A stretch of 49,400 bases of DNA from Deltaproteobacteria bacterium (GTDB lineage: Bacteria > Desulfobacterota > Syntrophia > Syntrophales > JAAYKM01), in the NCBI GenBank assembly GCA_012522415.1, contig JAAYKM010000029.1:1-49400 (forward strand), in the 5' to 3' direction. A model generated the notes under the pieces. That model saw only the letters and a list, made by a program, of their open reading frames with translations. It did no database searches and was not told the origin of the DNA. A program made the position numbers and the translations under genes. This document shows, piece by piece, positions 5,863-43,172 of this stretch. Position 1 is the first letter of the stretch. The number at the start of each line of letters is the position of its first letter.

Positions 5863-8220
5863 ATGATAGCAAAGATAGTCGATTTTATATTCAGGAAGCG
5901 GATGGCGGTCCTCGGAATTATCGGGGCCATCACCCTGGGCTTTCTGTATTTCATGATGAATATCAACATCGCCACGAACTACGACGATCAGCTTCCCACG
6001 AATCATCCGATCCGGGCGGTGCATGAACAGTACAAGGACAAGCTGGGCGGTTCCCACATGGTTCTGGTCATGCTCAAGGTCAAAAAGGGCGATGTCTGGA
6101 ACATTCCCACCCTGAAAAAGATCAAGTACATGCAGGAATACCTGGATGCGATCCCCGGGGTCAACCACTACCAGGTCAATTCGCTGGCCTCGCCCCGTGT
6201 GAAGCAGGTGGAGGTGACCTCCGGCGGCGGTCTGTCCTTCAAGGCCATCATGGCGGATGTTCCGCAAACGGAACAGGAGGTCGAAATTCTGGCCCGCAAC
6301 GTTCACCTGAACGACGCGGTTTATGGGCCCATGATCGCTTTCAACAACCAGTGCGCGCTTCTGACGGCGAACTTCATCGAGGGCAGCTTCAGCTATGACG
6401 AAGTGTTTTCGATGGTCAACAAACTCGTCGCGGAGATGAACGACGAGCACACGGAGGCCTATGCGGCCGGCGAGCCCATGCTCACGGGCTGGATTTTCGA
6501 TTACCGCAACGAGACGGTCATGATCCTGTTTTTTACCTTCGGGGTGATGATCCTGCTCCTCTTCCTCAATTACCGGAATTGGACGGGTGTGGCCGTGCCG
6601 ATGACCGCGGCGTTCGTCAGCGCCATATGGGGTCTCGGATTCTGCGGGCTCCTCGGATTCAGTCTGGACCCGTTGATCCTGGTCATTCCCCTTTTGTGTA
6701 TGGCCATCACGATCAGCCATTCCGTTCAGATGTGTCAGCGGTACTTTGAACTGCTCGATGAGTTCCGGGACAAGGAAAAGGCGGGCCGTCTGGCCATGCA
6801 GAGCATCCTGCCCCCGGGCATGCTGGGGCTTATCACCGATATCGGCGGTATGGCCTGTATCGCCGTTGCTCCCATCCCCCTGCTCCAGAAGCTGGCCGTT
6901 TTCTGCGGCTTCTGGATCGCAAGCATCGTGGTGAGCGTGATGATTCTCTGTCCCCTCCTGTTCCAGTTTTTCCCCGTACCGAAAAACCTGGCCAAGATCG
7001 CCCGTCCGGACAAGACGAACTTCTTGGAAAAACGGGTTCTGGGCAGTTTCGGATTTCTGGCGACGGGCAGGAGCGCCTACGGCATGGTCGGCCTGGGCGT
7101 GGTCATGTTCGTGGCGGCGGTCTGGGTGACGAGCAAGATGAACATCGGCGATATCCACCCCGGTTCCCCGATTCTGTGGCCGGATTCGACTTATAATGTC
7201 GCCATCAAAAACATCAACGAGAACTTCGCCGGGACGGAGGAACTCTTCTTCATCGTGGAGGGAAAGGAGCCGGGTCTGATCCGTCAGCCGGACATCCAGA
7301 GAAAGATCCGGGAATGCCAGATCTACATGGAAGAAAGCGAGATGGTCGGGTTCACCCTGTCGATTGCGGACTTTGCCCCGGTGGTGAACAAGATCATCCA
7401 TGCGGGGGATCCGAAGTGGGAGGTCATTCCGGAGGATGCCGTGATGATGGGGAGCGTCATGAACGTTGTCATCGGCGGTTCCGCGCCGGGTGACTTTGAC
7501 CGGATGATGAGCCGGGACCACAAGGACGCGAACATCGTCGTCTGGTGCAAGGATCACCAGGGGGATACGATCCGTCAGGTTCTTGCGCGCGCCCGCAGCT
7601 GGATCGCGAAGAACAAGGATTACGAGCCCCTGCAGTTCCGTCTGGCGAGCGGCTATCTGGGTATCCTGGGAGCGGTGAACGAGGTCGTGGCCCAGGCCCA
7701 GGCCCAGAACATCGCGTTGATTCTGGGGATTGTCGTTGTTTTCGCGGCGTTCACCTACCGTTCGCTGCTCGCCGCGGCGATTCTTGTGTTTGTCCTTTTG
7801 CTCGGGAACTTCCTGACCATGGTGTTCATGGTGCTCAAGGGGATCAGCCTCAATGTCAATACCATCCCCGTGGCCTCCATCGGCATCGGCGTGGGCGTCG
7901 ACTACTCAATTTACATCCTCTCACGGATCATCGAGGAGTACCAGCTTCACCGTGATCTGCGGCTGGCGATCCCGGTGGCATTGAGGACGACGGGCAAGGC
8001 CGTGGTGTTTACGGCGGTGACCCTGGCGGGCGGCGTGATCCTGTGGTACTTCCTGTCGTCGCTGCGGTTCCAGGCGGAAATGGGGCTGCTTCTGGCCCTG
8101 GTTCTGCTCATCAACATGGTTCTGACCCTGGTCCTGCTGCCTTCCATCATTTTTGTCCTCAAACCGAAGTTCATCGAAAAGGGGACGTTCATGATCCGGG
8201 AAAAGGCGGTGAGGGACTAA
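5863..8220 (+). CDS. RND superfamily permease, MMPL/hydrophobe-exporter type
   Basis: 785 residues with the duplicated RND layout: one helix, a large periplasmic loop (about 35-225), five to six helices, then a second helix, loop (about 440-620) and helices. The second half keeps a transmembrane acidic residue in GIGVGVDYSIYI (Asp about 679), the usual proton-relay position, while the equivalent first-half segment reads CMAITISHSVQM, with Ser-His instead of Asp. This is the MMPL/HAE type that moves lipids and hydrophobic molecules, not a tripartite AcrB pump; no membrane-fusion protein or TolC is adjacent. The ribosome binding site GAAGGAGGG precedes the ATG. It is co-transcribed with the YCF48 lipoprotein and probably works with the DUF1302/DUF1329 pair downstream. 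Confidence 0.9.
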   Translation: MIAKIVDFIFRKRMAVLGIIGAITLGFLYFMMNINIATNYDDQLPTNHPIRAVHEQYKDKLGGSHMVLVMLKVKKGDVWNIPTLKKIKYMQEYLDAIPGVNHYQVNSLASPRVKQVEVTSGGGLSFKAIMADVPQTEQEVEILARNVHLNDAVYGPMIAFNNQCALLTANFIEGSFSYDEVFSMVNKLVAEMNDEHTEAYAAGEPMLTGWIFDYRNETVMILFFTFGVMILLLFLNYRNWTGVAVPMTAAFVSAIWGLGFCGLLGFSLDPLILVIPLLCMAITISHSVQMCQRYFELLDEFRDKEKAGRLAMQSILPPGMLGLITDIGGMACIAVAPIPLLQKLAVFCGFWIASIVVSVMILCPLLFQFFPVPKNLAKIARPDKTNFLEKRVLGSFGFLATGRSAYGMVGLGVVMFVAAVWVTSKMNIGDIHPGSPILWPDSTYNVAIKNINENFAGTEELFFIVEGKEPGLIRQPDIQRKIRECQIYMEESEMVGFTLSIADFAPVVNKIIHAGDPKWEVIPEDAVMMGSVMNVVIGGSAPGDFDRMMSRDHKDANIVVWCKDHQGDTIRQVLARARSWIAKNKDYEPLQFRLASGYLGILGAVNEVVAQAQAQNIALILGIVVVFAAFTYRSLLAAAILVFVLLLGNFLTMVFMVLKGISLNVNTIPVASIGIGVGVDYSIYILSRIIEEYQLHRDLRLAIPVALRTTGKAVVFTAVTLAGGVILWYFLSSLRFQAEMGLLLALVLLINMVLTLVLLPSIIFVLKPKFIEKGTFMIREKAVRD

Positions 8221-9946: not shown

Positions 9947-11347
9947 ATGAGATTCAAGAAAAAAACGATGACATGGACGGTACTGGCGGGTATTTGCGCC
10001 TTGCTCCTGCTCGTGGCGGGGGTATCACCGGTTGCGGCCCTGACGGATCAGCAGGCCAGGGTACCCGGTTATTACGGTTTCGAGCAGAACCTGGACAAGT
10101 TCGATTTCACGGGTATGCCCATGAAGCTTCCTTCCAACGAGGTGGAGAGGCTTTCGAACGGGAAGATCAAGGTGGGTATGGTCATCAACAAGAACAATGT
10201 GGACAGTATGAAGAACGAACTGATCGCCCTGACCAGCCCGGGCATTTACGAGATGGTGAAGCGGGGCATGGAGATGGTCATTGCGGACTACAAGCCCTGG
10301 CCCGTTCCCAAGGCTTTCGCCGCCGTGACGAAGGCGAACGCCGGGCAGGCGGTCATCACCCCCGACGGGAACCTGAAGACAAAGGGCGGCCGGTGGTGGA
10401 CCGGTGGTATTCCCTTCTTCACGGTGGATCAGAAGGATCCCCAGGCGGGTCTGAAGGCCTGGTACAACCAGATAAACACCTATGACGGCGACGATTTTAC
10501 CCACGACTGGGTCAGCATGTTTTACATCGGCCCCCGAGGAAACCGGGAAAGAACCGTCGAGATGTCCTGGGACCGCCTCTTCCTGACGAGCCGGGAAATG
10601 ATCAACCCCAAACCGTCCTACGACCCCAAGGTGGAGGACATCTTCTTCAAGGAACTGGTTTACGTGCAGAGCCCGGCGGACCTGCAGGGTTTCGGCAACC
10701 TGACGTACCGATACAACGATCAGAACAAATCGGATGACGCCTTCGCCTACATCCCAGCCATGCGACGGGTCCGCCGTATCACGAGCGGTCAGCGGTTCGA
10801 CGCGTTCGTCGGCTGCGACTCCGCCATCGGTGACTTCCGGACCCTGGACGTCCCCCTGGCGCGGTGGAACTGGAAGCTGATCGCCGTGCAGCCGAAGTTG
10901 ACGACCCTGTTCTGCCTGGACTACATCACGGAGAACAAGAATGCCCAACGTCGCCACCCGACGACGGTGGGAGAAAAATTCCCCCGGATGAACTGGCGTC
11001 TGTGGCCCAATGTCTACGTCATTGAGGCGACGCCCAAAACCAAAAAGGACTGCCCCGTGTACAGCAAGAAGGTTCTCTGGTCCATGGGTGGAAACTGGAA
11101 GAGCGGCCTCGCCGATGCCTATGATCAGCAGGGCAAGCTCTGGAAAACGACCCAGAACTATTTCTATGGGTACGGCGACGGCAAGGTTCTCGATTTGCTT
11201 GCCCACTATGAACACGACTTCTATACATACGACCACCAGGCCGACCACGCGTCGCCCTGGCATATCGACTTCCCGCACCGGAAGTTCAACGTCGGATTCA
11301 CGCCCGAGCGTTTTTCGACGAAGTATCTCCAGCGGTATGGTCATTGA
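9947..11347 (+). CDS. DUF1329 periplasmic protein, copy 1
   Basis: 466 residues with an N-terminal signal peptide (hydrophobic core about 9-27, cleavage around AVAA). The mature protein fits DUF1329, predicted to have a LolA/LolB-like lipid-binding fold; it is therefore a candidate periplasmic carrier between the RND permease and the DUF1302 barrel. Recognisable segments include LTDQQAR at the mature N-terminus, GMPMKLP, and the C-terminal RFSTKYLQRYGH. It lacks a lipobox. Ribosome binding site AAGGAGGGA precedes the ATG. A close paralogue is encoded at 36929-38323, with a segment nearly identical even at third codon positions. It is the last gene of the cluster, followed by a strong terminator. 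Confidence 0.87.
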   Translation: MRFKKKTMTWTVLAGICALLLLVAGVSPVAALTDQQARVPGYYGFEQNLDKFDFTGMPMKLPSNEVERLSNGKIKVGMVINKNNVDSMKNELIALTSPGIYEMVKRGMEMVIADYKPWPVPKAFAAVTKANAGQAVITPDGNLKTKGGRWWTGGIPFFTVDQKDPQAGLKAWYNQINTYDGDDFTHDWVSMFYIGPRGNRERTVEMSWDRLFLTSREMINPKPSYDPKVEDIFFKELVYVQSPADLQGFGNLTYRYNDQNKSDDAFAYIPAMRRVRRITSGQRFDAFVGCDSAIGDFRTLDVPLARWNWKLIAVQPKLTTLFCLDYITENKNAQRRHPTTVGEKFPRMNWRLWPNVYVIEATPKTKKDCPVYSKKVLWSMGGNWKSGLADAYDQQGKLWKTTQNYFYGYGDGKVLDLLAHYEHDFYTYDHQADHASPWHIDFPHRKFNVGFTPERFSTKYLQRYGH

Positions 11348-18116: not shown

Positions 18117-19175
18117 TTACCAGACCACCTCGACCTTGCCTTTGGGGGTGTCGGTTATCTCTCCAACGATTGCCGCATCCGTTATTCCCGCTTCGTGCAT
18201 TCGGGGCAGTACTTCATCCGCCTCTGAAGGGCCCAGTATGACCAGCAGCCCTCCCGCTGTTTGGGGGTCGAACAGGATGTCCATCATCCAGTCCGGGCAG
18301 GCGGGGTCAAGGACCACCTGATCGGCCCGGTGACGTTTGTTCCTGGTTGTGCCCGCAGGAATGATCAGGTCGTCCAGGAGTTTCCTCAATCCCGGGAAAT
18401 AAGGGACTCTCTGCGCTTTGATCCGCATGCCGATGTCCGTCCCTTCGATCATTTCGCACGCATGACCCAGGAAACCGAAACCCGTGATGTCCGTGCAGGC
18501 ACGGACTGTTTCCAGGTCGTCGAGCAATTCCGCCGCTTGCCTGTTCAAGGTGGTCATGCGTCGGATCGATTCGGTCTGAAGCGCTTCGGAAGCGACACCC
18601 GCTTTGACGGCGGTGCTGACAACACCGGTTCCCAGAGCTTTGGTCAGAATCAGTTTGTCGCCGACGTTTCCGCCTCGATTCAGGAGTACCATGTCCGGAT
18701 GGATCACCCCCGTGACGGAGAGGCCGTACTTCAACTCGTCGTCCTCGACACTGTGCCCGCCAACAAGAAGGACGCCCGCCTCCTTCATCTTGTCCATCCC
18801 GCCTCTCAGGATATCCCTGAGAATACCCATCGGCATACTTTTAACGGGAAAACAGAGGATATTCATTGCGGTGATCGGCCGGCCCCCCATGGCATAGACA
18901 TCACTTAGGGCATTGACGACGGCGATTTGCCCGAATATGTAGGGATCATCGACGATGGGGGTGAAGAAATCGACGGTCTGGATGATGGCCAGATCATCCC
19001 GCAGGCGGTATACTCCGGCATCTTCGGCATGTTCCATGCCGACGATCAGATTCGGATCGGTGCTCAACGGCAGATCCTTCAGTGCCTCCTGCAGGTCGCC
19101 CGGACCTATTTTGCAGGCTCAACCGGCGCCGTGTACGGTTTCGGTCAGGCGGATCTTTTTTGTGTCATCAACCAT
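18117..19175 (-). CDS. selD: selenide, water dikinase containing selenocysteine (UGA at 19119-19121)
   Basis: 352 residues when the in-frame TGA (19119-19121) is read as selenocysteine. The true start is the ATG at 19175; the first 18 codons lead to GAG-U-ACKIGPG, aligning Sec19 with the catalytic Cys17 and Lys22 with Lys20 of the E. coli enzyme. Downstream features are typical: [25 protein letters not shown] and [13 protein letters not shown]. SelD makes selenophosphate from selenide and ATP for tRNA-Sec synthesis. A naive reading would start at a TTG at 19067 and miss the active site. A hairpin with SECIS features follows the TGA. The gene lies between the yedE-type operon and moeA on the same strand. 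Confidence 0.95.
19088..19121 (-). promoter_or_regulatory. bacterial SECIS-like element in selD
   Basis: Immediately after the UGA codon, CCUGC (19117-19113) pairs with GCAGG (19092-19088) and AGGUC (19107-19103) with GACCU (19097-19093), separated by a 5-base bulge on one side, with apical loop CGGGC containing Gs. The apical loop lies about 16-20 bases after the UGA, as expected for SelB recognition in bacteria. Confidence 0.8.
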
Positions 19176-19265
19176 TTCGGTTTCCTTGGAAGTTTTCTCA
19201 GGTTAATAAACCGGTTGCGGGATCAACTAAAATGAATCTTTCCCGCACCTGAAAGACATCACTTA

Positions 19266-19634: not shown

Positions 19635-20487
19635 TTACGAAAATGCCGCCCACAGCTTCGGGAATATGCATGACGATATCCATGATGCTTGACGCCGGCG
19701 TGGGCTTGGCAAGATGACCGGCCATACGGTTTATTTTGCAGGCCGCAACAGCCGCGTCAGGTATTGTATAACCGGCGGCTATCAGTGCGCTGACGATCCC
19801 CGTCAAGGAATCCCCTGTACCGCCGATGGCCTCCATGGCATCCTCGGAGGGTTCACTGACCGTTTCGATAATCTTTCCATTCTGAACGATATAATCGTTT
19901 TCACCCTTAACCAGGAGATTTTTTGCTGCATTCTTATGCGAATACGCCCGGGCAATAAGATCCGCTGCGCGGTTTTCTTCGTGAAGAATGAAGCCCCGCG
20001 TGTAAAAGGGGTGTGGCGCCGACTCATCGGCAAGAAAAGCCAATTCACCGACATCCGGCGTAAACAGGTCATAACTTTCAGCATGACCGCTCATCTTGGC
20101 GGCATACATGAAGCCCGCATCTGCAATCAAGACGGGTTTGTCTTTCAGCGCCTCTATTTTATGAAGAAGTTTATCATGCCAGTGGGTGATTGGCTGGAGG
20201 TAGTGCAACGTCAACGTGTCGATATCAAATTCGTTGAAATGATCCGTCAGATATTTTAACAGATGACGGCTTCCCGTGCCGCGACCGACATCACCTACCA
20301 GGAAACCATAAGGGGCCGGTTTCCCCATCGTGTCCAAGGTGACAACGGAAGCGGCCATGAGGGCGGACGTTCCGCGGTTTACGGATACGGCTCGCCCGTC
20401 CAGCAGGATACGATCATGATGTAGTGTCAAGGGACCGTGAATAATCGGTGTATCGTGATCCGGAACAGTCCCGACTATAGCAAGCAC
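19612..20487 (-). CDS. NnrD-like (ADP-dependent NAD(P)HX dehydratase / ribokinase fold) protein of the selenium operon
   Basis: 291 residues with the ribokinase-like fold of the NAD(P)H-hydrate dehydratase family: LIADAGFMYAAK, DLFTPDVGELAFLADE and the nucleotide-site GGTGDSLTGIVSALI. It differs from housekeeping NnrD (also in this window at 44286-45860) and is encoded in selenium-metabolism operons of anaerobic bacteria, with unknown substrate. It starts at GTG 20487, overlapping the DUF3343 gene by 13 bases, so translation is probably coupled. A different frame with a CxCC motif overlaps its 3' end. Confidence 0.75.
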   Translation of the reverse strand: MLAIVGTVPDHDTPIIHGPLTLHHDRILLDGRAVSVNRGTSALMAASVVTLDTMGKPAPYGFLVGDVGRGTGSRHLLKYLTDHFNEFDIDTLTLHYLQPITHWHDKLLHKIEALKDKPVLIADAGFMYAAKMSGHAESYDLFTPDVGELAFLADESAPHPFYTRGFILHEENRAADLIARAYSHKNAAKNLLVKGENDYIVQNGKIIETVSEPSEDAMEAIGGTGDSLTGIVSALIAAGYTIPDAAVAACKINRMAGHLAKPTPASSIMDIVMHIPEAVGGIFVKGSENCV

Positions 20488-21026
20488 CGTCGCTCCATTT
20501 CCTCGTAGGCAAGTTGCAGGGCGTAAGCGCAGAGGGTATGACCGACATCTCTCGGGTAGGGTGGGCTTCCCAATCGCTTGCCCGTCATTTCCTGAGCCAG
20601 ATAAGGCACATCAGGACACCCGCCGCCGGATACATTGACAATATTAAGATTATCCTTGCTGACGGTGATCTTCATGTTGGCTGCCCGGACCATCAAATAA
20701 TCACCAAAATCCTTTACGGCGTAGAGGTCGACCGGTTTTAACAAAGGTGAGGTCACCGGCACGGTTTCTCTGGGGACGATATCAGCCTGAGCAAGGGTCC
20801 TCAAGATGTTCATCTGCTCCATGATCGGAAATTCAATGACAAGGTCACAGCCGGTTCTCACCTCGGGGGGCGGCCCCATGACACGGATGTCCCAACCCGC
20901 CCTCTTGAGAATCTTTTCCGCTTGAATCACTTCACTGGTCGTATCGAAGACCAGAATGCCGAAGTCGACGTCATTGCGATCCAGTTCCCGGGCATTTTTT
21001 GTTTTGAATAACTTAAACAAGGACAT
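20475..21026 (-). CDS. DUF3343 (putative Se/S carrier-like) protein
   Basis: 183 residues. The N-terminal about 85 residues (DFGILVFDTTSEVIQAEKIL, GWDIRVMGPPPEVRTGCD) match the DUF3343 family, described as putative selenium/sulfur carrier-like proteins; the conserved Cys sits in TGCDLV. The C-terminal part contains SGGGCPDVPYLAQEM and GHTLCAYALQLAYEE and looks like a second small domain. The family often lies next to yedF/yedE. Here it follows the TusA-like gene by 5 bases and overlaps the NnrD-like gene by 13. A role in delivering Se or S to SelD is inferred from context. Confidence 0.82.
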   Translation of the reverse strand: MSLFKLFKTKNARELDRNDVDFGILVFDTTSEVIQAEKILKRAGWDIRVMGPPPEVRTGCDLVIEFPIMEQMNILRTLAQADIVPRETVPVTSPLLKPVDLYAVKDFGDYLMVRAANMKITVSKDNLNIVNVSGGGCPDVPYLAQEMTGKRLGSPPYPRDVGHTLCAYALQLAYEEMERRCLL

Positions 21027-21031
21027 GGCGA

Positions 21032-21247
21032 TTATTTCTCCAAAATCAACGTGTAACCCGCCCCGTCATTCTGAACATCCTTGACGCTCCACCCCTTGTT
21101 CTTTGCCAAGCGTGAAACGTTTTCCATCGATGTATCCGTATCGACCAATACTTCGATTACCCCCTTCTCCATGGTTTCGATCTGATTCAACGTCATAATA
21201 ACCGGCTGAGGACATGAAAGACCTCTGGCATCCACAAGTGCGCTCAT
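21032..21247 (-). CDS. yedF: TusA/SirA-like carrier, YedF N-terminal domain type
   Basis: 71 residues, a single TusA/SirA domain: VDARGLSCPQPVIMTLNQIE with the signature CPQP, whose Cys carries persulfide or a similar group, and a C-terminal strand ending GYTLILEK. In the selenium-metabolism protein YedF this domain is joined to a second DsrE-like domain; here it is alone and DUF3343 follows as a separate gene. It is inferred to bind or relay reduced selenium or sulfur taken up via YedE. Ribosome binding site GGGAGG precedes the ATG; the gap to yedE is 12 bases. Confidence 0.85.
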   Translation of the reverse strand: MSALVDARGLSCPQPVIMTLNQIETMEKGVIEVLVDTDTSMENVSRLAKNKGWSVKDVQNDGAGYTLILEK

Positions 21248-21259
21248 GTTTTACCTCCC

Positions 21260-22351
21260 TTACGCGGATTTCTCTCTCATGGTGAAACCAATAAACAGAC
21301 AAACGGCGAACCCCACAATCACCGCAGCAGCCCCGTGGGGACCAATGCCGGTCGTGGAACTGGCCAAACCGAAATTGTGGGCGATAGCGGCACCGACAAT
21401 CATGCCGAGGACAAAAACCGCCGCGTCGCCATCCCCCTCTCCGGCGAGGAAGAGCTGACGCCCGGGGCATCCGCCCGCCAGCACAAAAGCCAGGCCCGCC
21501 AGGGTCATACCGGCGAAGTTCCAGAGGTGCATGGTGTGAGCCACGGGCTGTTTTTCAAAACCCGGGTGAAATTGTCCGAGAAGGATGTTGGACAGAAAAG
21601 CCAAAATCAAGAGTGCGGCAAAACCGCCGAACAGGTGTGGCTGACGAAAGAGAATCAGGTCCCGAATGGCTCCCATTGTGCAGAAGCGGCTCTGTTGCGC
21701 CAGAATACCAATGAGCAGCCCGGCGCCGAGAGAAATGAAGAGGGGCGCAAACTGGGAACCGGGTCCTTTGAGGCTGTAAAAGAGCACCCCGCTTTTGGGT
21801 TCACCGGGAATTAGCGGGTTGAGAAAAAGGAGTACCAGAAGTCCCAGCATGATGATCGGCATCAGCAGGCCGACGGAAGGGTACGTGGATTGGGAACGGC
21901 CGAGGTTGTACCCCCCTTTTAGGAATAAGGTGCCGATCCAGATTCCCGCCGTCAACCCGGCGAGACCAAGAATGGCGTTCAAATCCCCCCCGGCCAGGCG
22001 GAGGACGGCGCGCCAGGGACAGCCTAAAAAGACTAGGGCCCCGATCATGGCGAAGACACCCAGAACAAAGCGGGCAATGGGAGCGGAGCCGGCTCTGGGG
22101 CGAAATTCGCGAAAAAGGAGGGCGGAGAGAAAGGCACCCAGTACAAAACCGATAATTTCAGGTCTCAAATACTGCACCACTTCGGCGCGATGCAAACCTA
22201 AGGCACCGGCGATATCGCGTTCAAAGCACGCGACACAAATCCCCATATTGGGCGGATTGCCGAATTTCTGTAAAAGCGCGGCCAGAATGCCGATCAAGGC
22301 ACCGACAGCAATAATTCCCCACCCTGAAGCAAGCGCATTTTTTAACTTCAT
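21260..22351 (-). CDS. yedE: YedE/YeeE-type selenium metabolism membrane protein
   Basis: About 363 residues with roughly ten hydrophobic segments and Cys motifs typical of YeeE/YedE transporters: NMGICVACFERDIAG, FLGCPWRAVLR, QSRFCTMGAIRDL and GGCPGRQLFLAGEGDGDA. YeeE homologues take up thiosulfate through conserved Cys residues; the YedE/FdhT subgroup in selenium operons is thought to transport a selenium compound. The ATG at 22351 has AAAGGAGG ten bases upstream; an in-frame ATG at 22375 would include this site and is unlikely. It is the first gene of the yedE-yedF-DUF3343-NnrD-like operon, divergent from a LysR regulator. Confidence 0.9.
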   Translation of the reverse strand: MKLKNALASGWGIIAVGALIGILAALLQKFGNPPNMGICVACFERDIAGALGLHRAEVVQYLRPEIIGFVLGAFLSALLFREFRPRAGSAPIARFVLGVFAMIGALVFLGCPWRAVLRLAGGDLNAILGLAGLTAGIWIGTLFLKGGYNLGRSQSTYPSVGLLMPIIMLGLLVLLFLNPLIPGEPKSGVLFYSLKGPGSQFAPLFISLGAGLLIGILAQQSRFCTMGAIRDLILFRQPHLFGGFAALLILAFLSNILLGQFHPGFEKQPVAHTMHLWNFAGMTLAGLAFVLAGGCPGRQLFLAGEGDGDAAVFVLGMIVGAAIAHNFGLASSTTGIGPHGAAAVIVGFAVCLFIGFTMREKSA

Positions 22352-22505
22352 AGAAATATCGCCTCCTTTAATCATGTCATCAATGTTAAAGCATTAATGA
22401 AACCCCGATCCGTCCCCTCATTTCATTTCGCCAAAGCAGCTTTCAGATCCGCTTAAAGCTAACAAAAGCAGAATAAGAAAGCATAATCAAATTAATTATT
22501 TGAAT

Positions 22506-35624: not shown

Positions 35625-36587
35625 TCAGATCGCCTCAATCGTCGAGGGGGGCTTGGTGGCGATGTTGTAAGTAACGCTGACCACCCCGGGAATATCTGAT
35701 GTAATTTCCCGGGCCAAGGCATCCAGAATATCGAAGGAAAGGCGCGTCGGTGTCGCCGTACGGGCGTCGATGCTGTCCCAGCAACGGACTTCAATCTGCA
35801 TGCCGAATTCCCGTTTCCCATCACGCATGCCCGTGACGCGATCTTCATGCAGAATGGCGAGGTATTGGAATGCGTCGATTCCTTTGAGGTGCTTTTCGAC
35901 GATAATTGTCGCCCGGCGAAGCGTTTCAATCTTATCCGGCGTGACTTCCCCGATGATTCGTGTGGCCAGAGCGGGACCCGGGAAGGGAATCCGGGTGAAC
36001 AACTCCGAAGGCAGGCCCAGCGCCTTGCCGACGGCCCGGACACCGTCCTTTCTCAACCGTAGCAGGGGCTCGATGATTTTGTATCCGAAAGCCGCCTGCG
36101 GATCGATGCCGAGTTGTACAAACACATTGTGTTGGCGTTTGATGCCCGCTACGGTTTCATCCACGTCGGTGAGGATCGTGCCCTGGAGAAGATACCGGGC
36201 ACCGCTTTCCCTGACGACACGCCCGAAGACGTTTCTATAAAAAGTCTGGGTTACGGCTTCGCGCTTTTCCTCTGGATCAGTCAGTCCCTTGAGGGCGGCG
36301 AAAAATTCGGCTTTTGCGTCACAGACTTCGACGGGTACCCCCAGGCTGCGAAAAAAACCGACTACCTGCTCGGCTTCCCCGGCCCGCATGACACCGTTGT
36401 CAACAAAAATGGAGCGCAGGCGTTTCCCCAGGGCGCGATGCCCGATCATGGTGACTACCGATGAATCGACGCCTCCTGAGAGGGCGTTGATGGCGATGCC
36501 GTCCCCGACAACATCCTGAATTTCCTTGACGCGTTCATCGATGAAACGGTCTGCGTCCAGTGACTGCAGGGTAATTTCCTGAACCAT
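35625..36587 (-). CDS. guaA: GMP synthase ATP-pyrophosphatase subunit, stand-alone
   Basis: 320 residues equal to the C-terminal two domains of GMP synthase: the N-type ATP pyrophosphatase P-loop SGGVDSS (residues 37-43), FVDNGVMRAGEAEQV, GTILTDVDE and the dimerisation domain (EFGMQIEVRCWDSIDARTAT and TKPPSTIEAI; canonical end is KPPGTIEWE). The glutaminase domain of normal bacterial GuaA is absent, and no glutaminase gene is adjacent. It either works with a separate GATase subunit as in archaea or with free ammonia, or is a paralogue with another substrate. GGAGGATATCTC precedes the ATG. A long leader starts at the promoter near 36800. Confidence 0.85.
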   Translation of the reverse strand: MVQEITLQSLDADRFIDERVKEIQDVVGDGIAINALSGGVDSSVVTMIGHRALGKRLRSIFVDNGVMRAGEAEQVVGFFRSLGVPVEVCDAKAEFFAALKGLTDPEEKREAVTQTFYRNVFGRVVRESGARYLLQGTILTDVDETVAGIKRQHNVFVQLGIDPQAAFGYKIIEPLLRLRKDGVRAVGKALGLPSELFTRIPFPGPALATRIIGEVTPDKIETLRRATIIVEKHLKGIDAFQYLAILHEDRVTGMRDGKREFGMQIEVRCWDSIDARTATPTRLSFDILDALAREITSDIPGVVSVTYNIATKPPSTIEAI

Positions 36588-36928: not shown

Positions 36929-38323
36929 TTAATGTCCGTACCGCTGAAGATATTTGGTCGAGAATCTTTCCGCAGGGAAGCCCACATTGAACTTTCGGAA
37001 GGGGAGATCGATGTGCCAGGGGGAGGCGTGGTCCCTTTGGTGATCGTAGGTATAAAAATCCGTCTCGTAGTGGGAATAAAGGTCAAGGACCCTGCCGTTT
37101 CCGTATCCGTAGAAATAATTTTGTGTCGTCTTCCAGAGTTTGCCCTCCAGGTCATAGGCGTCGGCCAGACCGCTCTTCCAGTTTCCGCCCATGGACCAGA
37201 GAACCTTCTTGCTGTACACGGGGCAGTCCTTTCTGGTTTTGGGTGTTGCCTCGATTACATGGACATTGGGCCACAGACGCCAGTTCATTCGGGGGAATTT
37301 TTCTCCCACCGTCGTCGGATGACGACGCTGCGTCGCCCGGTTTTCTGTTATAAAGTCCGTTGAAAAAAGCGTGGTCAGCTTGGGCTGAACATGAATGAGC
37401 TTCCAATCCCAGCGGGCGATGGGAACGTCCAGTGTACGAAAATCCCCGATTGATGAATCTGAACCGACAAAGGCGTCGAAACGCTGGCCGCTCGTGACAC
37501 GGCGGATTCGTCTCATCATGGGAATGTAAGTAAATGAATCATCCGGTCTGTTCTGGTCGTTGAAGCGGTAGGTCAGGTTGCCGTAGCCTTGCAAATCGGC
37601 CGGAGTTTGTACATAAACAAGTTCCTTGAAAAAGATACTCTCCATTTTTGTGTCATAAACGGGTTTTGGAGAGAGGGTTTCCCTGCTGGTGAGAAAAATC
37701 CTATCCCAGGACATTTCAACGACTCGCTCCCGCTTTCCTTTGCTGTTTACAAAAAACATGTTAACCCAGTCGTGGGTAAAGTCGTCGCCGTCATAGGTGT
37801 TTATCTGGTTGTACCAGGCCTTCAGACCCGCCTGGGGATCCTTCGGGTCCACCGTGAAGAAGGGAATGCCGCCGGTCCACCACCTGCCGCCCTTCGTTTT
37901 CAGATTCCCGTCGGGGGTGATGACCGCCTGTCCGGCGTTCGCCTTGGTCACGGCGGCGAAAGCCTTGGGAACGGGCCAGGGCTTGTAGTCGGCAATGACC
38001 ATCTCCATGCCCCGTTTCACCATCTCGTAAATGCCCGGACTGGTCAGGGCGATCAGCTCGTTCTTCATACTGTCCACATTGTTCTTGTTGATGACCATGC
38101 CCACCTTGATTTTCCCGTTCGAAAGCCTCTCCACCTCGCTGGGAGGAAGCTTCATGGGCATACCCGTAAAATCAAATTTCTCGGGATGCCGCTCAAATCC
38201 GACGTAACCGGCCAATCGGGCTTGCTGATCGGTTAAGGCGCCGGCGGGCAAAGGCCATACCGACGTAATAAACAAAGCCAGGACGAGCAACCTCCGCAGC
38301 GGGGTCATTCCGTTTTTCTGCAT
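36929..38323 (-). CDS. DUF1329 periplasmic protein, copy 2 (orphan)
   Basis: About 464 residues. Signal peptide with hydrophobic core (RRLLVLALFITSVW) and cleavage near PAGA, then the same mature layout as copy 1 at 9947-11347: LTDQQARLAGYVGFE at the start, RFSTKYLQRYGH at the end. Most of the sequence differs at many synonymous sites, but residues about 63-185 and a second block near 330-385 are almost identical to copy 1 at the DNA level. It stands alone, without DUF1302, YCF48 or RND genes, and has its own promoter and inverted repeat. ATG at 38323 with AGAGGAA seven bases upstream is preferred to a TTG at 38329. Confidence 0.88.
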   Translation of the reverse strand: MQKNGMTPLRRLLVLALFITSVWPLPAGALTDQQARLAGYVGFERHPEKFDFTGMPMKLPPSEVERLSNGKIKVGMVINKNNVDSMKNELIALTSPGIYEMVKRGMEMVIADYKPWPVPKAFAAVTKANAGQAVITPDGNLKTKGGRWWTGGIPFFTVDPKDPQAGLKAWYNQINTYDGDDFTHDWVNMFFVNSKGKRERVVEMSWDRIFLTSRETLSPKPVYDTKMESIFFKELVYVQTPADLQGYGNLTYRFNDQNRPDDSFTYIPMMRRIRRVTSGQRFDAFVGSDSSIGDFRTLDVPIARWDWKLIHVQPKLTTLFSTDFITENRATQRRHPTTVGEKFPRMNWRLWPNVHVIEATPKTRKDCPVYSKKVLWSMGGNWKSGLADAYDLEGKLWKTTQNYFYGYGNGRVLDLYSHYETDFYTYDHQRDHASPWHIDLPFRKFNVGFPAERFSTKYLQRYGH

Positions 38324-38346
38324 AATCAAATTCCTCTGGAGAGGCG

Positions 38347-39853: not shown

Positions 39854-41491
39854 TCAGGTATTTCCGGTTTCAACGAGGCGAAGAACCACACGGTTTCGTC
39901 CCTGCCTCTTGGCCTCGTACAATGCGGTATCGGCCGCGCGAAACAGCGCCATACTGGACATACCAACCGCCTGGAAGGCCTCGATTTGTGCGACGCCTAG
40001 GCTCAGGGTCACGGTGGAGGCGATCCCCGAATCCTCGTGGGGGATAGCGTATTCCGCAATCGCCGTCCGGATTTTTTCCGCGACATGCAGGGCGCCTTTT
40101 GTCCTCGTTCCGGGAAGTATGACCGCGAATTCCTCCCCGCCGTAGCGGGCGACGAAGTCTCCGGGCCGCAGGGCCGTTTGTTTGATAACCCGGGCGATCG
40201 TTTGCAGGCATATATCCCCTTCCTTATGGCCGTACCGGTCGTTGTATTTTTTGAAGAAATCGATGTCGCAGACAATCAGCGACAGAGGGTTGCCATTGCG
40301 CAGCATCCTTTTCCATTCGATTTCCAGGTGTTCATCGTAGGCACGACGGTTGGCGATTCCGGTCAGGGAGTCTGTTGTGGAAAGCCGGTAAAGGTCCTCG
40401 TTGGCCTTTCTCAGCATGTCCTGGGCCCGGGTGAGTTTCTCGTAGTCCTGGGCATTTTCAACCGAGAGCTCACAGACTTCGGCAATGGACAGGGCCAGGT
40501 TCAAGTAATGATCGATATAGCGGGGAAACGCGATCTCTTCCACTGCGACCACCCCCCTGGTTTCCCCGCGACGGGTGATACGCACCAGAAACCCCTTTTC
40601 TGTCTCCATATAGCCCCCGGCCCCGTTGAAAGCGGCCATTCTCTTTTTCATCGTTTCCGTTTCCGCCGCATCCACCGCCTCTTCCGGCCGGATCCAGAGC
40701 CTGTCCGGTAAACCGTCCCGAAAACTCAGATAACAGACCCTCCGCGGCGCAAAAAGAAAGCTGTAAACGTCCAGCATCGCTTCAATGGCTCCGGCTTCGG
40801 TTACGATTCGGGCCAGGTTGGCTATGAGATCTATGGTCATGGCATATGTGGCGGTCTGTTTTCTGATTTCACTGATTTCCGCCTCGGCCCTTTCCTCCTG
40901 CAACGTCATTTGCCCTGTCAGGAAGGCTCTTGTAAAAAGCAGACGGAGCGACGCAATACCCGTGAACTGAACTTCGAAAGGTTTGCCCAGATATCCGGTG
41001 AAAGCCCGCAGGTGCTCCGGCCCTCGGTCGTCGACACCCGTGTCGAGAAGAACGATTTTTTTTGTGGTCTCTCCGAACATGTCCCGCGCCGTTTTCCTGT
41101 CCAGGCCGAAACGTTTCATATTGTCGGGCCAGTCGGCCAGCCATCCGGATGTCGTCAGATAAGCGCCCCCGTCCAGGCAGCGGTTGATCAGGAAGGAGTC
41201 GGCAACCATCTGGAAGCAGTTCTCCAGTCGATGGACCTGAATATCGTAATCATTCGAGATAAATTCGGAAAGACCCTTCAGACAGGGGCCACCAAAAATT
41301 TCAAACCGCCCGGTGTTACCGGAGGCGGTCGCCCATTCCACGATTTCCTCCCGCCCCAGTGGCGGCCGTCCGCATCGGGCGGGAAAGGCCGTCACGGAGA
41401 CGTTACCCAGCTTCTCCACCGCGAGCGCTGCCTCCGCTTCCTTCAGAAAATGTTCGCAGACGCCGAAGGTCGTTGTCATTTTAGAGGACAT
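39854..41491 (-). CDS. DUF1638-GAF-GGDEF diguanylate cyclase
   Basis: 545 residues. N-terminal about 205 residues fit DUF1638 (GPCLKGL, AYLTTSGWLADW, KIVLLDTGVDD), a domain otherwise found with corrinoid methyl-transfer genes in anaerobes. A GAF-like sensory region follows (about 220-365), then a GGDEF domain (about 385-540) with TTDSLTGIANRRAYDE, CDIDFFKKYND and the active-site RYGGEEF (about 449). A RxxD inhibitory site (RPGD) lies five residues before GGEEF, so the enzyme should make cyclic-di-GMP with product inhibition. No transmembrane helix is evident: a cytoplasmic sensor. Its ATG overlaps the stop of the UroD-like gene by one base (TGATG). The signal is inferred to be a corrinoid- or methyl-transfer-related state. 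Confidence 0.85.
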   Translation of the reverse strand: MSSKMTTTFGVCEHFLKEAEAALAVEKLGNVSVTAFPARCGRPPLGREEIVEWATASGNTGRFEIFGGPCLKGLSEFISNDYDIQVHRLENCFQMVADSFLINRCLDGGAYLTTSGWLADWPDNMKRFGLDRKTARDMFGETTKKIVLLDTGVDDRGPEHLRAFTGYLGKPFEVQFTGIASLRLLFTRAFLTGQMTLQEERAEAEISEIRKQTATYAMTIDLIANLARIVTEAGAIEAMLDVYSFLFAPRRVCYLSFRDGLPDRLWIRPEEAVDAAETETMKKRMAAFNGAGGYMETEKGFLVRITRRGETRGVVAVEEIAFPRYIDHYLNLALSIAEVCELSVENAQDYEKLTRAQDMLRKANEDLYRLSTTDSLTGIANRRAYDEHLEIEWKRMLRNGNPLSLIVCDIDFFKKYNDRYGHKEGDICLQTIARVIKQTALRPGDFVARYGGEEFAVILPGTRTKGALHVAEKIRTAIAEYAIPHEDSGIASTVTLSLGVAQIEAFQAVGMSSMALFRAADTALYEAKRQGRNRVVLRLVETGNT

Positions 41492-42543
41492 CAGGCCGGG
41501 GCTCCTTTTACGGGATAGGTTCCATGACGCCGCAGGGATTCACCGATTTCCAGGAGTGTTTCTTCTGGAACCTGCCAGGGAATTTCACCATGATTGTCCG
41601 AAAGAATGAAGCCGCCCCCCGTTGCCCCTTGGCTGATCGCTTCTCTGACCTTTTGCCGCGCTTCGGCTGCACTCCAGCGCCGCATCTCGACTCCGTTCAG
41701 GTTTCCCAGGACAGCGATTTTCCCTCGGCATGCGGATTTGATCCGAGCCAGATCTTCCACACAGCTTACGCCGACCACTGCCGCGCCAGTTTGAACAATA
41801 TCGCCAAGAATGGGGAGTGCGCGCCCTGAGGACAGGTGGGTTGCCACCGGTCCGTTGAGCCTGGCCAGGACGCGTCCGGCAATTTTGAAGCCCGTACGCA
41901 GGAAATGATCGCGGGGGACCATGTCGGGTGAGGAGACGGGATCAAAATAGCAGATCGCCGTTGCGCCCGCCGCAAGCTGCGCGTTGGCCCAGTCCACACA
42001 GAAATCCTGGTTTATCCTCATCAGCTCCGCGAAGCGTTCAGGGTTCTCCATCATTAAATCCAGATAGGGGCCGAAACCCATCTGCATGACCGGAACGGAA
42101 AAAGGGGACATGACGACGCCGATTATCGGACACTCGTCCCCGACGCGGGTTTTCATGAGTTCAATGGCCCTCAGAACCTTGGTCAGACAGGGCGTTTTCG
42201 TGATATCCGGGACTTTTAGCCGTCCGATCATGGCGGCCTCTTTAATAAAAGACTCATCGGAATTGGGCGGGCCGTCCGGAGTGAAAATGAACTCGCCGCC
42301 CGAGGCTTCAATTTCCACGGGGGCGTAGAAAAAACCGTACAGGCAGTCATGGCCGTATTTGGCCCGCATACGGCTCTGGGCTTCGGCAACGTGCTCGGCT
42401 TTCGAAAAATAATCTTGAATGGAAAGCCCCAGTTCCCTTGCGCCATGCATGGTGAGCAGCAGAAACAGGGGGACCCGATCGGGTTCATTATGTCCCAGGG
42501 AGGTGAGCGTGCGTTGCATGGAGGTCATCGTTTCCTTTTTCAT
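41491..42543 (-). CDS. MtaA/CmuA/uroporphyrinogen decarboxylase-family protein
   Basis: 350 residues with the UroD-type TIM barrel: MQRTLTSLGHNEPDRVPL, YFDPVSSPDMVPRDHFLR, ATHLSSGRALPIL and KIAVLGNLNG, then a GGGFILSDNHGEIPWQVPEE segment. Related MtaA/CmuA enzymes transfer methyl groups between corrinoid proteins and thiols such as CoM or tetrahydrofolate using a zinc site H-x-C...C. Here the site is altered: H-L-S instead of H-x-C, and NHGEI where the second Cys is expected. It overlaps the corrinoid-binding gene by 4 bases and the GGDEF gene by 1, so all three are one operon. It may be a methyltransferase with changed metal ligands or a non-catalytic partner. Confidence 0.87.
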   Translation of the reverse strand: MKKETMTSMQRTLTSLGHNEPDRVPLFLLLTMHGARELGLSIQDYFSKAEHVAEAQSRMRAKYGHDCLYGFFYAPVEIEASGGEFIFTPDGPPNSDESFIKEAAMIGRLKVPDITKTPCLTKVLRAIELMKTRVGDECPIIGVVMSPFSVPVMQMGFGPYLDLMMENPERFAELMRINQDFCVDWANAQLAAGATAICYFDPVSSPDMVPRDHFLRTGFKIAGRVLARLNGPVATHLSSGRALPILGDIVQTGAAVVGVSCVEDLARIKSACRGKIAVLGNLNGVEMRRWSAAEARQKVREAISQGATGGGFILSDNHGEIPWQVPEETLLEIGESLRRHGTYPVKGAPA

Positions 42544-43172
42544 GACAGATCTCCCGTGATGTTCCGGACGATGCCCGGGGCATCCGACGCGGAATAGCCC
42601 ATCGCGTCGGCACCGACTTCACGCCAGAGTCCGGCGTCAAAACGAAATGGGGCGCCTCCGACCACGACTTTCACGTCCAGGTTCGCCCTTTTCAAGGCGG
42701 TGACAACTTCCCGGACCCGCAAAGCGGAATTCAGCATCAGAGTCGAAAGCAGAAGGACCCGGATTTCGTCGTCCCGTACTCTGGTGATGGTATCCGAGAC
42801 CGTTGTACGACCATAATCCTTGACATGAAAGCCGTTGGCGCGCAACAGGGCATAGACGATACGCTTGCCGAGCAGATGATAATCATCAAGCACGGCGATG
42901 GCCATCGGCGGCTGGTTTCCGTCTCGGGTATCATCTGGAGGCAGCAGACCCTCCACCAGTTCTTCACAGATGCGGCCGCTCATATAAACCTGCGCCAGGG
43001 AGACGTCACCGCGCTCCCATCTGTCGCCGATGCGTATGAGAGCCGGCATAACCAGCCGGTCAACGATTTCCATGGGTTTCATTTCCGATCTTGCCGCATC
43101 CGCCATTCTGCGGACGGCGAGACGGTCGATGGACAAAAGAGCCTGCTCAAATTGCCGGGAAGTTTCTTGCAT
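42540..43172 (-). CDS. corrinoid (cobalamin)-binding protein, MtbC/MtaC type
   Basis: 210 residues. N-terminal helical cap (about 1-85; EIVDRLVMPALIRIGDRWERGDVSLAQVYMS-type pattern, read here only in part) and C-terminal Rossmann-like B12 domain with all three base-off/His-on motifs: DYHLLG (DxHxxG, His the lower cobalt ligand), LLLSTL (SxL) and VVGG. Such proteins carry a methyl group on cobalt between methyltransferases. The ATG at 43172 has AAAGGGGG four bases upstream. First gene of a three-gene operon with a MtaA/UroD-like protein and a DUF1638-GGDEF protein; no substrate-specific methyltransferase (MtaB, MttB) is present. A GATAAT with extended TG (about 43212-43220) may be its -10. Confidence 0.93.
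   Translation of the reverse strand: MQETSRQFEQALLSIDRLAVRRMADAARSEMKPMEIVDRLVMPALIRIGDRWERGDVSLAQVYMSGRICEELVEGLLPPDDTRDGNQPPMAIAVLDDYHLLGKRIVYALLRANGFHVKDYGRTTVSDTITRVRDDEIRVLLLSTLMLNSALRVREVVTALKRANLDVKVVVGGAPFRFDAGLWREVGADAMGYSASDAPGIVRNITGDLS

Follow-up and report, generated by a model that had tools for sequence, protein, structure and literature searches.

Does a B12-binding protein encoded beside a methyltransferase-like barrel and a GGDEF protein serve metabolism, or is it part of a sensor? The question is raised by three genes spanning 43172–39854 on the minus strand of contig JAAYKM010000029.1 from a Deltaproteobacteria bacterium (assembly GCA_012522415.1, order Syntrophales), analysed here as a window of 49,400 nucleotides. 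They encode a corrinoid protein (42540–43172, 210 aa), a UroD/MtaA-like barrel (41491–42543, 350 aa) and a sensor with DUF1638, GAF and GGDEF domains (39854–41491, 545 aa). A preliminary description of this DNA had reported that the genes overlap by 4 bases (first and second) and 1 base (second and third), which we verified, and had proposed that the corrinoid state is read out as cyclic di-guanosine monophosphate (c-di-GMP), possibly by a dedicated sensing module instead of a catabolic pathway. Here, we conclude that the trio is very probably a conserved, modular signalling unit.

Related loci were searched for with the N-terminal part of the sensor only, in 149 related genomes and then in 84,980 species genomes, so that neighbouring genes played no part in locus discovery. 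Scanning the species genomes with the single protein gave no matches; a sensor profile built from the alignment succeeded. The order corrinoid protein, barrel, sensor was recovered at 21 of the 21 species-genome loci with enough upstream contig, spread over eight phyla, and two further loci stop at a contig edge within the barrel gene. Of the 23 loci, four are the Syntrophales ones also found as G148, G124, G094 and G067, and additional loci come from G031, G278, G472 and a plasmid of Azoarcus sp. KH32C. The hosts comprise Syntrophales, Geobacterales and Desulfobacula, together with beta-proteobacteria (Accumulibacter, Rubrivivax), Chloroflexota, Armatimonadota, Holophagaceae, Nitrospirota, Nitrospinota and Neomarinimicrobiota. 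Given that it was recovered from sensor sequence alone, the constant order is more than chance, and the three-gene neighbourhood first described from the window is conserved in its relatives. Many other short DUF1638 loci (L097–L101, L103–L114) were without the full trio. The trio type of UroD (E < 1e-30) occurs in 6 of the 149 related genomes, all of which carry the sensor. Mean pairwise identity declines from the UroD barrel (55%) through the corrinoid protein (47%) and DUF1638 (36%) to the GAF domain (32%), as expected if the barrel recognises a common ligand while the read-out varies.

The outputs differ between loci. GGDEF is the output in the window and in L045–L047, L053 and L065, a histidine kinase (HisKA-HATPase) in L051, L052, L054, L056, L059, L089 and Azoarcus, and a hybrid kinase with one or two receivers in L048, L055, L057 and L058; the DUF1638 protein of G031 (L014) has the architecture GAF-PAS-PAS-HD-GYP. 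Sensors without an enzymatic output (L049, L050, L060, L063, L093) end in a short Cys-rich tail. Hence, the system is modular, with c-di-GMP as one output among several, and the proposed c-di-GMP read-out holds for the probable output in the window but not for the kinases, hybrid kinases, HD-GYP protein or Cys-rich tails found elsewhere. Enzymes of c-di-GMP turnover also adjoin kinase-type loci, namely REC-HD-GYP (L054, L051), REC-PAS-PAS-GGDEF-EAL (L059) and HD-GYP (Azoarcus) proteins.

The sensor also occurs in split form. In L066, DUF1638 and the GAF-kinase are adjacent separate genes, and in a second clade (L091, L094, L096, L102) the corrinoid and UroD genes are followed by a stand-alone DUF1638 gene and then by a separate kinase gene. 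The split-form genomes are G195, G181, G304 and G503, with PAS domains instead of the kinase in L090. We considered the G195 and G181 loci as triads without signalling and rejected this, the next gene being a histidine kinase (L091, L094) or encoding PAS domains that run to the edge of the contig (L090). In a DUF1638 tree, all members from the trio lie on one side of a 100/100 branch, separate from 12 sampled other DUF1638 proteins, and form two subclades. Because the HD-GYP fusion of G031 groups with L102 in the split subclade (100/97), DUF1638 has probably been fused to signalling domains more than once.

Two observations touch these outputs. The Cys-rich tails share a recurring motif, CxxC(K/R)(K/R)...FSHGxCPDC, marking a small module for output or binding. 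Downstream of the trio in beta-proteobacteria lies the gene of a protein (7821–8204 in both L051 and L052, 7835–8218 in L059, 11926–13530 in L125) with a receiver domain and a variable C-terminal output, the first 128 residues being 64–73% identical to those of the Azoarcus protein.

Signalling domains of several kinds at the loci of sufficient length, split forms included, are hard to reconcile with an ordinary set of enzymes for one-carbon methyl transfer, with DUF1638 as a maintenance factor and an incidental GGDEF domain. Such a set would accord with stand-alone DUF1638 proteins being part of corrinoid metabolism (PMC5764234, PMC12478193) and with the catabolic role of corrinoid plus MtaA-like pairs elsewhere. 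However, the window's genome (98.9% complete) contains no RACo/RamA C-terminal domain (PF14574) and no MttB (PF06253), MtaB-type proteins not having been searched for, and its only other B12-cap protein is MetH, which ends after its B12 domain. These absences, with MetH as the sole other corrinoid protein of this kind, argue against a catabolic pathway, as does the confinement of the UroD type to sensor-bearing genomes among the relatives, and we regard the enzyme set as the least probable of the explanations weighed here. The earlier suggestion of a dedicated sensing module is supported. RamA-type proteins are absent in G000, G124 and G031 and present in eight other hosts of the trio, and the module is therefore independent of RamA. 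Scanning the window against Rfam gave no match, and hence no cobalamin riboswitch in the window.

How could the sensor receive and transmit a signal? At its N-terminus (residues ~1–190; 40922–41491), where DUF1638 had been suggested, a profile search returned PF07796 with E 1.7e-8 and a score of 34.9 bits, above the cut-off of 27; most sensor orthologues score 29–53 bits, with L052, L059 and the Azoarcus sensor slightly under the cut-off. It is the one DUF1638 occurrence in the window's genome. Of its cysteines C12, C40, C70 and C92, three are shared by the trio and other family members (C12 in 34/34, C70 in 33/34, C92 in 34/34), and C40 is an extra cysteine in most DUF1638 domains of the trio, adjoining a column in which other DUF1638 proteins nearly always have a His. 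As judged from these alignment columns, the cysteines read as a metal, redox or methyl-acceptor site. The AlphaFold2 model of the domain has a predicted local distance difference test (pLDDT) score of 95.1 and no confident relative in a structure search, the best being the PrpR N-terminal domain (E 4e-3, template modelling score 0.42), so that the fold provides no functional hint; searching solved structures by sequence with the sensor profile gave no match either. The middle region (residues ~220–345; 40457–40834) is GAF-like as first described: although undetected by Pfam, it shows GAF topology in the AlphaFold2 model (pLDDT 90.5), and GAF proteins are the top Foldseek matches. Long signalling helices (residues 180–227 and 323–369) flank it. 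The GGDEF domain (residues 372–534; 39890–40378; PF00990, E 6e-51) is likewise intact, with GGEEF at residues 451–455 and the product-inhibition site R442-x-x-D445 five residues upstream, the sequence features of a diguanylate cyclase. The sensor is apparently an active, product-inhibited diguanylate cyclase, and c-di-GMP is in all likelihood the output in this genome.

DUF1638 was also observed fused to a hydantoinase/oxoprolinase-type ATPase (L044:1387–3555 in G311, with PF05378 and PF01968, and L027 in G229), another undescribed architecture, which may link DUF1638 to the ATP-driven activation of corrinoids.

The corrinoid protein (PF02607, E 4.5e-15; PF02310, E 3.1e-18) consists of a B12 cap (residues 6–74) and a B12-binding Rossmann domain (residues 92–194). 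Its B12 site is complete, as had been noted, with D97-x-H99-x-x-G102, S143, L145 and G172-G173; the DxHxxG...S...GG motif is kept in 23/23 relatives and, together with the cap, is that of base-off/His-on methyl-transfer corrinoid proteins. Cap residues W52 and Y63 are conserved, and the best relatives in the PDB are MttC (7xcn) and MtmC (3ezx). B12-linked diguanylate cyclases are already known as light sensors, the photocobilins (PMC10979010, PMC11796333), and the published B12 light signature comprises GxxW, EH, GxxH and GxxxP (PMC11796333). Could the trio be a B12 photoreceptor of the CarH or photocobilin kind, the barrel serving as an accessory? GxxW is present in 23/23 corrinoid proteins of the trio, photocobilins do couple a B12 domain with a diguanylate cyclase (PMC10979010), and there are phototrophs among the hosts (Viridilinea, Rubrivivax). 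However, V62-Y63 replaces the EH pair in 22/23 (TF in one) and GxxH is absent from 22/23, so the corrinoid protein lacks the CarH/photocobilin signature as judged on GxxW, EH and GxxH. Neither the methyltransferase-type barrel nor the non-phototrophic hosts fit light sensing, which we consider highly unlikely.

The second protein is an MtaA/UroD-type barrel (PF01208, E 2.3e-51), as first described, and its best solved relative is the methylcobalamin:coenzyme M (CoM) methyltransferase 4ay7 (E 3.7e-26), to which it is closer than to UroD. It scores 95.6 bits with the MtaA/CmuA profile TIGR01463 (cut-off 235.4) and 52.9 bits with the HemE profile TIGR01464 (cut-off 302.95). The catalytic Asp region of UroD is not kept, its FSD segment aligning with an F[YFH]A-like sequence. 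At the H237-x-C239 site of MtaA, which we take to provide the zinc ligands, the His is kept in 19/23 barrels, and all 23 have A, S or G instead of the Cys; the window's barrel retains H236 and has S238 in place of the Cys. The C-terminal H318-G-E320 is kept in 22/23. On these score and zinc-site tests of the sequence the barrel is MtaA-like, yet no CoM methyltransferase, and it may itself be a substrate-side enzyme or a ligand binder. Because the zinc Cys of MtaA is missing, the barrel is perhaps the substrate-side partner; the earlier statement that no substrate-side methyltransferase is present is therefore unsafe, since such a barrel may fill that role.

If the barrel were only a ligand binder or scaffold, the trio could be a corrinoid/tetrapyrrole-status sensor without methyl transfer, in which the corrinoid protein would report B12 supply or cobalt redox and DUF1638 would read occupancy or redox via metal or disulfides. 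Consistent with this, the barrel lacks both the zinc Cys of MtaA and the catalytic Asp region of UroD, a set of three to four cysteines as in DUF1638 is typical for metal or redox sites, and the RamA reactivase is missing in some hosts. Against it stand the barrel as the most conserved part and its likeness to 4ay7 over UroD, corrinoid motifs of the methyl-transfer type and one methylotrophy-island context, and we think this explanation rather unlikely.

That context is found in Azoarcus sp. KH32C, where the trio lies between fae-fhc genes and a pyrroloquinoline quinone (PQQ) methanol dehydrogenase cluster, with RuBisCO, mch and tetrahydromethanopterin genes around it. Because the trio sits inside a methanol-oxidation island, the locus suggests methanol or a one-carbon compound as the signal. 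A CoxG-like gene lies immediately upstream of the trio in Viridilinea (L053:3461–4201) and Rubrivivax (L059:3416–4111), and an SRPBCC gene lies near it in Azoarcus (L125:6622–7143); a CoxG/SRPBCC-type protein is a possible extra partner of the trio.

The explanation that we favour, with belief and doubt about equal, is a dedicated input module in which the barrel ligand and the corrinoid state are read by DUF1638 and passed to the output; composition, order, co-occurrence, output swapping and conserved or lost residues were computed. The barrel's ligand would be a small methyl donor or one-carbon compound, with methanol or something close to it as the best guess, and a methyl group would be exchanged between the barrel and the corrinoid protein; that such a transfer, onto the corrinoid or off it, is the sensed event has an even chance of being correct. 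The corrinoid state (methylation, Co oxidation state) would then be read by the cysteine-bearing DUF1638 through docking, possibly with metal chemistry at the conserved cysteines or with their methylation, and the change would reach the output via the GAF domain and the coiled helices, the output being predicted here to be a diguanylate cyclase and elsewhere kinases or an HD-GYP phosphodiesterase off the same input. In this scheme we infer complex formation, methyl transfer, the ligand and the direction of regulation. In its fullest form, which we put forward tentatively and as falling short of an even chance, the trio would represent a widespread, undescribed class of chemosensor: the barrel would demethylate a methyl donor (for example, methanol) onto the B12 protein, and DUF1638 would read the methyl-corrinoid with interchangeable outputs (c-di-GMP synthesis or breakdown, phosphorelay).

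Several points weigh against the favoured input module. Without the zinc Cys of MtaA in the barrel, methyl transfer is not assured, and some hosts (G000, G124, G031) lack RamA for the regeneration of Co(I). The methanol-island context occurs at the Azoarcus locus alone, and methylotrophy genes sought in ~6 kb flanks of the remaining loci were not found. Two conserved motifs of the sensor were used to pick the loci, which biases the sample towards its close relatives, and many of the loci come from metagenome bins.

Is such a system new? A search of the open-access literature found no description of the trio, and to that extent the earlier claim that no characterised system has this composition stands; it does not extend to B12 with GGDEF, which is known from photocobilins (PMC10979010). 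Because photocobilins are known, B12 plus GGDEF alone is not new, and the novelty lies in the trio as an input unit on known outputs. The photocobilins SasPcob and AbDPcob, which combine B12 with a bilin and one of which carries a diguanylate cyclase, share with the trio that a B12-binding domain can control GGDEF, but they are single-chain light sensors with EH and a bilin domain, whereas the trio consists of separate proteins without EH and adds a barrel and DUF1638. Systems of the MtaABC/MtbA-MtbC type (MtaA 4ay7, MtmC 3ezx, MttC 7xcn) likewise combine a UroD-fold barrel with a cap/Rossmann DxHxxG corrinoid protein; in contrast, the trio's barrel has no zinc Cys and is under the MtaA/CmuA cut-offs, MttB is missing from the genome and the third gene encodes a signalling protein. 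Stand-alone DUF1638 is genetically required for B12-dependent methionine synthesis in Phaeobacter, with a RamA-like protein (DUF4445), no function having been proposed (Price et al. 2018, PMC5764234). It shares the family, three common cysteines and a corrinoid context with the trio's members, but these form their own clade, in most cases have signalling domains in the same protein or after it, mostly have the fourth Cys and in some hosts occur without RamA. GAF-linked GGDEF proteins and GAF histidine kinases have the same output architecture and signalling helices, and the trio differs from them in its input, DUF1638 with a dedicated corrinoid protein and barrel.

If the favoured explanation is true, a receptor common to many phyla would use B12 organometallic chemistry as a sense organ wired to c-di-GMP or two-component circuits, and DUF1638, a B12-linked domain of unknown function, would gain a testable job. 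It would also account for genes annotated merely as 'uroporphyrinogen decarboxylase family' and 'cobalamin-dependent protein', and would provide named strains, among them Azoarcus sp. KH32C and Geomonas azotofigens, with a candidate receptor for methanol or one-carbon compounds.

Other genes in the window were also noted. SelD, the selenophosphate synthetase (18117–19202, minus strand), is itself a selenoprotein with an in-frame TGA that is read through, and a start at TTG 19067 would shorten it; apparent selenium-related genes lie nearby (20475–22375). Two proteins encoded at 36929–38329 (minus strand) and 9947–11347 (plus strand) are 82% identical over 466 residues. We take both to be DUF1329-like, and the neighbours of one copy to be an RND/MMPL exporter and a DUF1302-like gene, which it adjoins; the other copy stands alone near the corrinoid operon. 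GMP synthase (35625–36587, minus strand) appears to be a separate ATP-pyrophosphatase subunit without a glutaminase domain, as in archaea.

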